DNA of 64,000 nucleotides, taken from the NCBI RefSeq assembly GCF_030463535.1, contig NC_132897.1, positions 6,454,321 to 6,518,320 on the forward strand, in the 5' to 3' direction. Below, piece after piece: positions 16,627 to 60,803 of this stretch (its first letter is position 1; every line of letters begins with the position of its first letter). The DNA is from Salminus brasiliensis (taxonomy: Eukaryota > Chordata > Actinopteri > Characiformes > Bryconidae). A model generated the notes under the pieces. That model was not told the origin of the DNA. It saw only the letters and a program-made list of their open reading frames with translations, and did not search any database. The translations under genes and the position numbers were made by a program.

Positions 16627-19600
16627 ATGCCAACAGGGAGCCCATCTTTCCGTTTAAAGGTCGCTTCTGTGCTTGTCTTCGTGCTGCTTTTAAAAGAAGA
16701 AGCCACATGCAGTGTTGGTAAGCTGAATTTCTGAATAAGGCGCCGTTTGTGCGTCTGTTATGAACCTGGTTAGCTTGCTAGCACTAGCATATTATTGCCA
16801 GCGAGCTCAACGCACTCTCGTTGCCAGGGAGATCTTTGCCTCGTTGCCAAGGAGACCGTAGGCAGGCCTCTCGATGTAAATAGAAGCATGCGCTAGCTCG
16901 TTTAGCTAGCTAGCTAGCAGCTAGCTCATTACCCTGTCTATTTCAGTCGTGTTTATGTAAATAACCGCGTATTTATGCTGCATTAAGATTCTCTACATTG
17001 TACAGAGCTTTTCTGATCTTCTGGGAAAGCCTAGTTACACTAGAAGGTGGAACATTTCCTTAAGGATCTGATTGCAGTCAGCCACAAGAGTATAAGCTCC
17101 TACTGTCCAGCTACTGGTGTTGGATGAATAGCCCTGGATCACAAGTGATTCAGGGCTTTTTAAGGAATGCTTTTAAGGAATGCATTCAGCTGCTTTGCTG
17201 AAGTTGCACCCATTGCCTACACAATGCCCCTGTAGAAAAGTATTGCTGGTAGATTGGGACTCTACACTTGCACACTATTGTTTACATTTCTTACTTGCAA
17301 CCTGCACTTTATAGCTGCTGCTCTTCATACTTGCTCATACTTGCACATAAAAGCACATTTAACTTTTATTTAAATTTTTTTTTATTGTAAAAAAGGAAAA
17401 AGTTTACTTAATTTTTCTTTTTTTTTTTTTTACTTCAACTTATATTATTATACTTTATTTATTTTGTATATATTTTTTATTATTAATTTCTTTTTTGTTA
17501 TCTTTATCTATTGGTGAATGGAGGGACAGCAAAGTAAGAATTTCATTGTACAGCGTAACTGTCTGTTTCGGCTGTGCATATGACAATAAAACTCTTGAAT
17601 CTTGAATCTGCACCATGCTGCCTAAAGCCAGGCGTGGGCTATAGAGGGGTCCGAAGCCCTCCAGCATTGAGCTGTGGAGCAGTGGAAGAACCGTGTTCTC
17701 TGGAATGATGGGTGGTGGAGCTCCATCCAGTACTTTTTGGATGAATCGTGGAGTTGGGATTGAGGTGGGGTGGTGATCATCCAACATCCTGACCTCATCG
17801 ACTCTGTTGTTGCTGATTGCAATCAAATCCTCACAGCAGTGTTCCAGAATTTAGTAGAAAGCCCTTTCTGGACAGTGACAGTTATTCCATCAAAAGCAGG
17901 ATAAACTCTCTTTTTATTATCCTTGATTACGGAATAAACAGTGAATGAGCAGGTGTCTCAATACTTTTGGCCATAAATAGGGTATAAGAAATATTAAAAG
18001 ATAGCAAGTCTGCAAGAAAGACTAAGGAAGACTCTGCTCTACATGCCCGAACGTCTGTAGACACCTCCTAAAGTTTCTTCTAAATATCAAGTGTATTAAT
18101 TTTCCTCTGCTCCACAGCCCAAGGCGCCCAAGGCTGTGGTGTCTTGATCATGCTAAAGGTCACAGTGTCAGGAAAACCTCACTGACCGCATGTATAAGAA
18201 ACCCTGAGAGGAACCAGGAATCAGTAGAGGAACCAACTTCTGCTCATTATAGTGGCCCTACATGTTTACAAGAAAGGTTAAACTGAAAAAAATGGTCTAT
18301 GAGGATGTCCATATGTTTGTGGACTCATGCTCATCCAGTTTCCAATCTGGTTGATTAGCTGTGGATCACAATCGCTAGTCCAGCTCACTCCACAGCTCCA
18401 CTTCTCCATCACATCACAGCTTGATCATGCTGAGGGTGTCTGTGTCAAGACCCAGATAACATGCCCATATGGGGCCTGTATGGTTTGCCCAAATGGGAAC
18501 CCGAAAGTTTTGTCCATGATGAACTCACATATGACTTGGCCACCAGGGTCCCACCAGGGTCAGTGAGGGGACCAGGAGGGGTTGAACATGGGCCCCATTT
18601 GAGATGTACACTGCATATGAGGAATATAGGGGACCCATGTGAGATTAGGGTGGGCTGTAGCGATGGAACCCATTTTGGGAAGCCCAACTGGGTCCTAATT
18701 ACGACACACGTGGTTGGTGTGGTGCGACAGATAACACCACTACCTGCCAGTGAGTTACCACACCATGTGGGAGACTGGGGTTCAATTCCCAGTCTGGGCG
18801 GCTATGCTGTGCTACACCAATAAGAGTCTTTGGGCAAGACTCCTAACACTACACTGGCCCTCCTCTGTAATACAAGTAACCTTGTAAGTCGCTCTGGATA
18901 AGAGCGTCAGCTAAATGCCATAAATGTAATGTAAATGACGCACACATGGTAGAAAACTTAGCCCACATTCCACCCATGTGAGCCCCACATGAGTAAGTTA
19001 GCTGGGAAAGAATTAGTGAAAGTATGTATAAGAAACACTGAACACTGAGAGGAACCAATATTCAATAGAGGAACCAGCTTTTCCCTGAGATCATAGCCTT
19101 AGATGTTTGCAGTAAAGGTTAAACAGAGGGCATGGGTTCATACAGAGGAAGGGTCAGTGTGATCCACTACATGGTCAAAGGTGTATAGACACCTGCTCAT
19201 TCAGCCTTTTCTGATTTCAAGGTTATTGGTAAGCAGTTTGGCAGTTCTCCAGCTCTACTGTCCAGTGCTGGGGTTTCTTGATCACACTAAAAGTCACAGT
19301 GTCAGGAAGAACTACCTAAAAGCATGCATAAGAAACCCTGAGAGGATTTAGTAGAGGAACCATCTTCTGCCCATTATAGTAGCCCGACAAGTTAACAAGA
19401 AAGGTTAGATGAATGTTCTCATACAGAGGCAACCAGACTGAGCCCAGCATCTACTGTAAAGGTTTTTAAGGAAGAGGCTGTTACGGCTATAAAAAGAGCA
19501 AAAATACTCTTGATTTTAGAAGAATGGATGAGTAGGTGTCTACAAATGTTTGGACACACTAATAAGCGCTCTTTAGGAATGGCTCCCGCCATCAAAGCTC

Positions 19601-57420: not shown

Positions 57421-58284
57421 TCGTCACCAGTCCGTTGGACAGGCCTGTGCACATGTATATTCTACTGAAGTAACCTTTGCATTATTTAAACCACCCCTAC
57501 AGATGGAGGAATCACAGTCGGGATCAGGCTATCTGATGCTGTCAGAATCGCTAGGAGGAGAGGGCTGGCAAAATTCTGTTTTTATTTACTTACTAGCTAC
57601 AGTACGCACAGTTCCTAATCAACTGTTTTAATAAGACTATCTCAAGGTTTAATTTATACCTATTTAAGTTTGGTTTGGTTTTTGTTTTGAAAAATCAACA
57701 AAATGTATTTTACTGTATTAAATACTGTATAAATGTTCTGATGGTTGATGCCAGTGTTTGTTTGTCGATGCCATGCTTTCTTTTACCCCAGGGGTCATGA
57801 CATGCAGTTGGATTGATAATATAAACAGTTGGATTGATAATGTTTATATTTCTAATAACACTTATTATTACTAATGATGGATAAAGTGGATAAAATGCTT
57901 GAGTATTGCCCTTCAAACAGGGCCAGTAGGTCGGTGCCTATTGTCTGAGAACCTACAGTCTGTCCAGTGTGTATCTGTCCCTGTTGTGTACTTGTAATTC
58001 TTAAATTGCCTTAATTGTTTAAGATGAATTAATTCACTAATTAAACACTGATATTTAAATTAGAACGCTGATTCTGCATGTGTTTAAGTACCTTTGTTTT
58101 GTACCTTTGTTGCAGTATGCCTAATTTAATCACTTAGCTGATACTGCCACTTAGTGACTGTTCACCACAAGTGTCAACAGGCCTTCCAGCCAATAAGTGG
58201 AACCAATATTTGAGCCACCAGCATTCATGATCATACAGAGAGGTTGTGTGGTATTTGGATTTGAACTTTACTTGAGCATAATTG

Positions 58285-58460
58285 AAACACTGATCAGCCA
58301 TAACATTAATACCACATATTTGTTTTTTAAAAAATCCACTCGTATCCCCTGCGCAACACACACAGAACACACCACCACCATGTCAGTGTCACTGCAGGGC
58401 TGCAAACGACCCACCACTCGACTAATACCTGCTCTGTGGTGGTGTAGAGAGATGTGGCCA
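58285..58460 (+). repeat. Fragment of a 'taacattaa..accac' type element
   Basis: 'gatcagccataacattaata' + 'ccacat' and 'accaccatgtcagtgtcact' resemble the ends and interior of the elements at 20862 and 49741. Confidence 0.5.
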
Positions 58461-59109
58461 GTGGCATGGTAAACATTTTACTGTAAAAAATTAAAAAATA
58501 ATAAAAAATATTATTAACTATTAATAAACTATTATTTTTCAGGGGTGTCCAAACTTTTGTATTCCACTGTAAATTGATATTTTTAAAAATACAATAACAA
58601 AAACAGATTTCCCCATTAAGGCCCCTTCAAATGGATTGAGTGGGTGTCCCAGTTTACCAGTCCCATTTCCAATAAAATTAAAAACTAAAAATTACATTCA
58701 ATTATTTATATTTTCCATTTTTTTACATGTCACACCCTTTAGTGTACATTTACAAACCTTAAATACTATTTACAAATTGATTCTTTAAATCTTAAACTCA
58801 TTTAGACTAATTTTCCTCAGTCCTGCCATGCCTTACTATACACTTACTATTGATTTTTTATAATCCCAGTCAAAAACTGGATTTGGACTCCTCCCTTATA
58901 AATGGCATAACGATCACCAGTCCCACCAGTTTAACACTTTACTACCAAAGGTGTTTCAGTCACTGAAGTTCTGTATACCAACTAATTTAATTAGGCTCAA
59001 GCTTAAACGTCCCACTTCAGCAGTGTTCACCCTGCACCACACGAGGGCGCAGTCGTCCTTAAAAAGAGCACAGACTGAAGGCGCTCACGCCTTACACGCG
59101 TATATCGAA

Positions 59110-59295
59110 ATATCATTGGCTGTATGCTAATGAGGGAGCGCGTATACCACTCTTATTGGCGGTATGCTAATAAGGGACCTATCGAACAGTCTGATTGGTG
59201 TTTTGGTAACAAGAATCGCAGCCCAGAGACTTCTTGGTGGCATGCAAATTGAGTAGGCAGGCACAGCAACCTCATTGGTGGTATGCTAATGAGGA
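59110..59295 (+). promoter_or_regulatory. Five-module CCAAT/octamer array upstream of cnnm4
   Basis: Reverse CCAAT boxes (ATTGG) start at 59115, 59155, 59194 and 59274, with a one-base variant (CTTGG) at 59233, giving a period of 39-41 bp. In four of the five modules an octamer-type element starts exactly 9 bp after the box: ATGCTAAT at 59124, 59164 and 59283, and the canonical ATGCAAAT at 59242. The third module has a decayed octamer. CCAAT boxes bind NF-Y and octamers bind POU factors such as Oct-1. The array ends about 100 bp before the ATG. Confidence 0.65.
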
Positions 59296-59320
59296 GGCGT
59301 GTCCTGCGGAAAGGAGTAGG

Positions 59321-59328
59321 TGACGTCA
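59321..59328 (+). promoter_or_regulatory. Palindromic CRE in the cnnm4 promoter
   Basis: TGACGTCA lies 62 bp before the ATG and directly after the CCAAT/octamer array. It is a perfect CREB/ATF site; occupancy is inferred. Confidence 0.5.
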
Positions 59329-59389
59329 GCCCTCGACTAGCGGGCAGAACGAGCGTGCGCGTGTGTCAGAGTGTGTGTGGATAACAAAC

Positions 59390-60803
59390 ATGGCGACAGG
59401 ATGGTGTGGAAAGGGGAGCGCGCTGACTTTCGTGGTTTTCCTTTGCACCGGAGTTTGTGCGAGCGCGGCGGGGAGCGGCGCGGGGGACGCGGGCGAGAGC
59501 CGCATCCTCGGCATGCGGCTGGAGGGCAGCGACAAGCCGGCCACGATCACCGAGGACGGCGTGATCCAGGTGACCGAGGAGAGCAGCGTGTCCCTCCGCT
59601 TCTACGGGCTGCACCTCAGCAACAACACCCTGGCGCAGGTCATGTTCATGGACCTGGGTGGGGACACCGGTGGTGGTGGTGGTGGAGGTGGAAGCGGTGG
59701 AGGTGGAGATGAGAAGAACGGCACCTGCGTCGATTCCACCAAAGACATCATCATGAAGAGCATAAACGTGGGTAAGCAGGGCACCTCCGCGGTGCTGCGC
59801 CTTACAGTCAGACTGCTGCGTAAAAGTGAGACGCACAAGGACTATGGCTTGTGCACGAGGAACGAGAGGGACGGCACGTGGTACCTGTTAGGCGAGCAGG
59901 ATGGCAGGCTTCGCGTGGTGGAGGATAAGAAGTACCTGCTCCCCATGTGGCTCCAGGTGATCCTGATCTGCTGCCTGTTGGTGCTGTCAGGTATGTTCAG
60001 TGGGCTAAACCTGGGCCTCATGGCTCTGGACCCCATGGAGTTGCGCATCGTGCAAAGCTGTGGCACAGACAAAGAGAAGAAGTATGCACGCAAAATTGAG
60101 CCCATCCGAAGGGAGGGGAACTACCTGCTTTGCTCACTGCTTCTAGGCAACGTTCTGGTCAACACCACCCTCACCATCCTTCTGGATGACCTCATAGGCT
60201 CAGGTGTGGGTGCTGTGGCGGCCTCCACCATCGGCATAGTCATCTTTGGTGAGATTGTGCCTCAGGCCCTCTGCTCTCGCCACGGCTTGGCAGTGGGCGC
60301 CAACACCATCCTGCTTACCAAGTTCTTCATGCTGCTGACCTTCCCCTTGTCCTACCCTGTCAGCAAGCTGCTGGACTGCATCTTGGGCCAGGAGATGGGC
60401 ACGGTCTACAACCGTGAGAAGCTGGTGGAGATGCTGAAGGTGACTGAGCCTTACAACGACTTGGTGAAAGAGGAGATGAATATGATCCAGGGAGCCTTGG
60501 AGCTCAGGACTAAGACGGTGGAGGACGTCATGACTCCGCTAAACAACTGCTTCATGATACACAGTGATGCGGTGCTGGACTTCAACACCATGTCCGAGAT
60601 CATGGAGAGCGGCTACACTCGCATCCCGGTGTTTGAGGATGAGCGGACCAACATCGTGGACATCCTCTTCGTCAAGGACCTGGCCTTCGTGGATCCGGAC
60701 GACTGCACGACCCTCAAGACCATCACCAAATTCTACAACCACCCGGTCCACTTTGTTTTCCATGACACCAAGCTGGACTCCATGTTGGAGGAGTTTAAGA
60801 AAG
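59390..60803 (+). CDS. cnnm4: Metal-cation transporter CNNM4-like, first coding exon (gene continues past the window)
   Basis: One long open exon of 1414 bp (471 codons plus one base) ends at a GT donor after EEFKK, where vertebrate CNNM exon 1 is expected to end. The ATG at 59390 has a strong Kozak context (A at -3, G at +4); no earlier in-frame ATG is used. From the N-terminus: signal peptide about 1-28; extracellular domain with LGMRLEG and a Gly-rich run (about residues 94-107); DUF21 membrane domain about 183-360 ([56 protein letters not shown]); CBS pair from about 375 ([27 protein letters not shown]). Family knowledge: Mg2+ efflux or Na+/Mg2+ exchange at the basolateral membrane. [15 protein letters not shown] and [11 protein letters not shown] look closer to CNNM4 than CNNM2 by eye. 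The second CBS domain is completed in exons not seen here; intron 1 exceeds 3.1 kb. Confidence 0.93.

Follow-up and report, generated by a model that had tools for sequence, protein, structure and literature searches.

Positions 59110 to 59295 of the Salminus brasiliensis DNA analysed here (all positions refer to the window, i.e., the whole 64-kb stretch under analysis) contain an array of five modules built from two motifs, namely, a reverse CCAAT box followed at 9 bp (start to start) by a site of octamer type. With moderate confidence, we assign the array to the proximal promoter of a gene of CNNM4-like type and regard it as a duplicated NF-Y/POU-type unit that has kept its motifs best. The modules are most likely five worn copies of a unit of approx. 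40 bases, that is, the product of an old local duplication retained in an ordinary putative promoter. Promoter activity, the proteins involved, their cooperation, and the action of selection are what we infer from this arrangement and from its likeness to known promoters.

Layout, rarity, and setting of the array

The reverse CCAAT box (ATTGG) starts at 59115, 59155, 59194, and 59274; at 59233 it is replaced by CTTGG, which differs from it by one base. The start-to-start steps across the five modules are 40, 39, 39, and 41 bp, which confirms the first-pass annotation in its description of five reverse CCAAT boxes, one with a single-base change, repeating every 39-41 bp. All modules are on the + strand. 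In module 1 (59115-59131), the box at 59115-59119 is followed at exactly +9 from its start by ATGCTAAT (59124-59131) and then by GAGG. The same ATGCTAAT occupies exactly this position in module 2 (59155-59171; box at 59155-59159, ATGCTAAT at 59164-59171) and in module 5 (59274-59290; box at 59274-59278, ATGCTAAT at 59283-59290), where it is again followed by GAGG. Module 3 (59194-59210) combines an intact box (59194-59198) with TTGGTAAC at the octamer position (59203, exactly +9), which has three mismatches to ATGCTAAT. In module 4 (59233-59249), the damaged box, CTTGG, adjoins the canonical octamer ATGCAAAT, again at exactly +9 (59242-59249). An intact CCAAT is found in four of the five modules and an octamer-type site also in four, of which three have the variant ATGCTAAT and one has ATGCAAAT; the annotation was right to report four modules with an octamer-type site 9 bp on, but both motifs are intact only in modules 1, 2, and 5 (3/5). 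Several of these features count against the promoter reading favoured here: two of the five modules lack one motif each, the reverse CCAAT of module 2 is preceded by T, versus C or G in the consensus, and ATGCTAAT is non-canonical, being a variant of the octamer.

The array is not due to chance. All four ATTGG and all four forward ATGCWAAT sites of the interval 58000-60500 fall inside it; no reverse-strand octamer occurs in that interval, and its three forward CCAAT boxes outside the array (58190, 58203, and 58669) are located 450 to 930 bp upstream. When up to three mismatches are allowed, the composite ATTGGN4ATGCWAAT has 49 matches in the 64-kb window, below the shuffle expectation of 63.5. 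Its perfect matches in the window number three, all in the array, and its one-mismatch matches number two, one being module 4 and the other lying at 2911. The latter, ATTGGTTTATTGCAAAT at 2911-2927, is the sole match in the window outside the array with no more than one mismatch to the composite. A sample of 20 Mb simulated from local base steps contained one composite. In the Salminus assembly (1,066,335,885 bases), strict ATTGGNNGTATGCTAAT has three matches, all of them in the array, and neither the other strand nor the reversed control gave any match in these 1.07 Gb, counts that may run low; for such a 15-base strict pattern, simple arithmetic on uniform sequence gives a chance expectation of about two matches outside the array. 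A genome-wide strict element was rejected on these grounds, as the 15-base pattern was matched nowhere in the 1.07-Gb assembly but at the array's own three sites. Moreover, the modules look related, and their probabilities must therefore not be multiplied.

The array ends approx. 100 bp short of the start codon inferred for the CNNM4-like gene, and the four exact ATTGG start 116 to 275 bp before this ATG. The first coding stretch of the gene extends on the + strand from the inferred ATG at 59390 to approximately 60802, and its open frame continues upstream to 59324. Among solved structures, the gene product matches CNNM4 (9y9d_A) with 639.7 bits, and its Pfam matches are Ig_CNNM4_N and CNNM; the claim that the array adjoins a CNNM gene is thus borne out, the gene being CNNM4-like. 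In particular, CNNM4 is the only animal CNNM represented at full length in the structure matches, and the nearest CNNM2 chains are part-length. Over the CBS part of the product, solved structures of CNNM2 (209.9 bits) and CNNM4 (209.6 bits) score alike. Because the CNNM2 chains are part-length and the scores over the common part are similar, the gene is called CNNM4-like and no further. Its first exon also contains a glycine-rich run (GGT/GGA codons) at 59669-59707, within the Ig-like domain match.

Across 59000-59599, the CpG observed/expected ratio of successive 200-bp bins is 1.06, 0.81, and 1.15, whereas the six bins that cover 57800-58999 stay between 0 and 0.43. Between the array and the gene lies a palindromic word, TGACGTCA (59321-59328), which we take to be of the CRE type. 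The position of the array, the CpG richness, and TGACGTCA fit a putative proximal promoter. The proposal that all modules lie on one face of the DNA was not borne out: at 10.5 bp per turn, the sites are placed at 0, 291, 189, 86, and 51 degrees from module 1, and near alignment is obtained only at 10.0 bp per turn (0, 0, 324, 288, and 324 degrees). Among the five pitches tried, the sites fall within 72 degrees only at 10.0, and they are spread over most of the circle at pitches of 10.2 to 10.6; a single helical face was consequently rejected.

Copying and selection

The five modules were compared over 40 columns, 13 of which belong to the motifs and 27 to the filler. Mean pairwise identity is 0.85 in motif columns versus 0.43 in filler, with a column permutation P of 2e-5 that flatters the contrast because the motif columns had been named by eye before the test. 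Pairwise comparisons of modules 1, 2, and 5 give the same picture, as all 13 motif columns are identical and only 15, 16, and 13 of the 27 filler columns agree.

The filler itself appears to bear traces of common descent. Its in-register identity (0.433) exceeds that of shuffles (0.252), none of 20000 shuffles being as high, and motif-masked identity over lags 30 to 50 peaks at lag 40 (0.368; the next value is 0.319 at lag 48). The 8-base word CGCGTATA is common to the fillers preceding modules 1 and 2 (P 0.006 for the local score), the 7-base TATCGAA to those preceding modules 1 and 3 (P 0.0455), and AGGGA to those preceding modules 2 and 3 (P 0.0495), all three values being uncorrected for 15 pairs; a longest common word of at least 8 bases occurs in 4.75% of shuffled sets. 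Two results speak against copying, since significance was reached neither when the fillers were compared with gaps (P 0.077) nor when local scores were summed across six fillers (P 0.26). In register, the fillers thus resemble one another at the repeat period more than chance would give, as expected of an old, diverged tandem duplication, while the gapped tests do not reach significance. Such a duplication appears best visible in modules 1 to 3, is likely for module 5, and is uncertain for module 4; for the last two modules it is less certain because the gapped tests are non-significant and the P values of the word matches carry no correction for the 15 pairs. A fresh minisatellite was rejected, since Tandem Repeats Finder at score 50 reported no array at 59110-59295, filler identity is as low as stated above, and the best 45-nt copies are only 62% and 71% alike.

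Duplication passes the 9-bp register on with the unit, and the register alone is therefore not evidence of selection; copying explains it without extra assumptions. The contrast between motifs and filler would be the evidence of selection, within the small sample of five related copies from one genome. The annotation had regarded the motifs and their spacing as selected rather than merely copied. The motif columns are indeed the better kept, but the claim as worded is not supported, in view of the in-register filler identity, the lag-40 peak, and the common words; judged by the sequence, both copying and selection have probably been at work.

The same observations bear on an alternative, namely, that one CCAAT promoter piece was duplicated long ago, that only one or two of the CCAAT boxes matter, and that the octamers and the register are functionless passengers. 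The filler similarity and common words speak for it, and so does the loss of one motif each from modules 3 and 4. Against it stand the better-kept motif columns across the array and the full agreement of modules 1, 2, and 5 in their motifs compared with their incomplete agreement in filler. We consider this alternative unlikely.

Dyad symmetry and the RNA reading

The near-complementarity of CTCATTGG and CTAATGAG enables modules 1, 2, and 5 to form hairpins, and the near-palindromic character of these modules suggests another origin for the second motif. NF-Y would still bind to CCAAT, but the second site would serve a reader other than a classical octamer protein or would be a decayed inverted CCAAT, with CTAAT, one base off, in place of CCAAT. 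Over the outer 12 positions of the dyad, pairing in modules 1, 2, and 5 amounts to 17/36 versus 10.0 expected (P 0.0044), though these modules were picked after looking; over all five modules it is weaker, at 23/60 versus 16.2 (P 0.026). Furthermore, an inverted-CCAAT origin does not predict the exact canonical octamer ATGCAAAT of module 4. This explanation is held to be quite unlikely.

It is very improbable that the unit acts as RNA, by means of sense-strand hairpins in the 5' leader. In its favour, the array's sense RNA folds with a z of -2.41 (5/200 shuffles as good), with stems at modules 1, 2, and 5, and the antisense RNA with a z of -1.49. In folds of single-stranded DNA, z is -2.64 for module 1, -2.93 for module 2, and -4.71 for module 5 with longer flanks (0/200 shuffles as good). 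In addition, one dyad pair (within 59150-59176) is C..G in modules 1 and 5 and T..A in module 2, a two-sided change that keeps the pairing but represents one event, no more than shuffles give. Against these points, modules 3 and 4 lose the stem (z of -0.77 and +1.50), and covariation across the five modules is at the shuffle level (248/500 as high) and is exceeded when partners are slid by +2 and +3. Stems of at least 8 pairs with a loop of 5 are, moreover, numerous on the + strand of the window (53, compared with 27 to 44 in ten simulations), and only 3 of them are in the array; in Rfam, the array has no match up to E 1. Neither compensatory changes nor a family match, either of which would mark a structured RNA, thus characterize the array, and an RNA hairpin array was rejected because of the covariation result, the two stemless modules, the similar stems elsewhere in the window, and the Rfam result. 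The only Rfam match at the gathering threshold in the window is a UnaL2 LINE 3' element at 18871-18924.

We regard the hairpins as arising incidentally from the two motifs. Module 5 may be an exception, as its inverted repeat extends to 20-base arms with 70% complementarity. This longer, imperfect inverted repeat occupies 59257-59307, within 59255-59309, and it is stronger than the CCAAT/octamer dyad alone would explain. Least probable of all is an independent origin of the sites within a selected, fixed grammar and with no copying, which would agree with the non-significant gapped tests but is opposed by the in-register identity of the filler, the lag-40 peak, and the occurrence of CGCGTATA in the fillers of both modules 1 and 2.

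Proposed mechanism and comparison with known promoters

In the favoured promoter reading, a unit of approx. 40 bp, comprising a reverse CCAAT and a POU-octamer-type site 9 bp on, would have been duplicated in tandem some time ago. The filler would then have drifted and the motifs would have been best preserved, with modules 1, 2, and 5 remaining intact, module 3 retaining CCAAT only, and module 4 the octamer only. By analogy with known promoters, the CCAAT boxes might be occupied by NF-Y trimers, which would hold the chromatin of the region open, with Oct-1/POU2F1 or another POU factor bound alongside; together, they could raise transcription of the transporter gene from a start just downstream. 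A more ambitious form of this proposal, in which the array is a dedicated NF-Y/POU cooperative composite with a 9-bp register, its five cassettes set the dose or timing of the transporter gene, and the grammar is conserved in related fishes, is regarded as decidedly doubtful. If the register is conserved, the array would offer a natural series of graded copies (three full, one CCAAT-only, and one octamer-only) from which the spacing requirements of NF-Y and POU factors could be measured; if it is not conserved, the array would be one more promoter with a duplicated, partly worn CCAAT unit.

Direct CCAAT repeats recognized by NF-Y are taken to comprise at least two boxes of the same orientation near a gene, and here four exact ATTGG lie on one strand; an octamer-type site beside CCAAT, the mark of an Oct-1/NF-Y composite, is found in three of the five modules, with starts 9 bp apart. 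A literature search of incomplete coverage retrieved no paper on a CNNM4 promoter of such a layout. Among the matches listed for ATGCTAAT with CCAAT or octamer, the ATGCTAAT papers are, by their titles, on other subjects, and a search for NF-Y/Oct-1 composite promoter spacing with ATTGG gave no match.

NF-Y, according to two reports, binds to CCAAT and acts as a pioneer factor in early embryos, including those of zebrafish, where it promotes open chromatin (PMC11802806, PMC6986763). In NF-Y promoters with direct CCAAT repeats, the main distance is described as 31 bp, followed by 41 and 51 bp, with peaks every 10-11 bp (Haubrock et al. 2016, PMC4982600). The array resembles this class in having several same-orientation CCAAT boxes near a gene start, and its 39-41 bp steps are at or near the reported 41 bp; it differs in that the peak of the class is at 31 bp and the word octamer is absent from that paper (PMC4982600). 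Measured between intact boxes, the spacing is 40, 39, and, across the changed box, 80 bp, i.e., near 41 and not 31. The agreement with 41 bp is not a strong argument, because the sharp peaks that the class shows at 24 and 41 bp in distal regions are reported to derive from LTR12 elements (PMC4982600).

Other promoters share parts of the layout, as far as their accessible descriptions extend. In GADD45A, Oct-1 and NF-YA act at OCT1 and CAAT elements between -121 and -75 (PMC7037490); an Oct-1-type site and a CCAAT box likewise occur together in one putative proximal promoter here, as read from sequence alone, but no array is described for GADD45A. The ATRX promoter has three CCAAT boxes at conserved spacing, at +3, -34, and -65 (steps of 37 and 31), and a CREB-type site, and is conserved across eutherian mammals (PMC3144453). 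It is similar to the present array in its spaced CCAAT boxes with a CREB-type site and differs in its demonstrated conservation and in having no octamers in the description. Human histone promoters also combine CCAAT and Oct-1 motifs in one class, although CNNM4 is not a histone gene (PMC1794435). Finally, TAATGAG in modules 1 and 5 equals the first seven consensus letters of the TAATGARAT-type Oct-1 sites, but the last two letters are missing in both modules and the host promoter is cellular (PMC6065388). Proximal promoters that repeat CCAAT boxes and octamer-type sites are thus a known kind; what makes the present variant unusual is the repetition of the 9-bp register.
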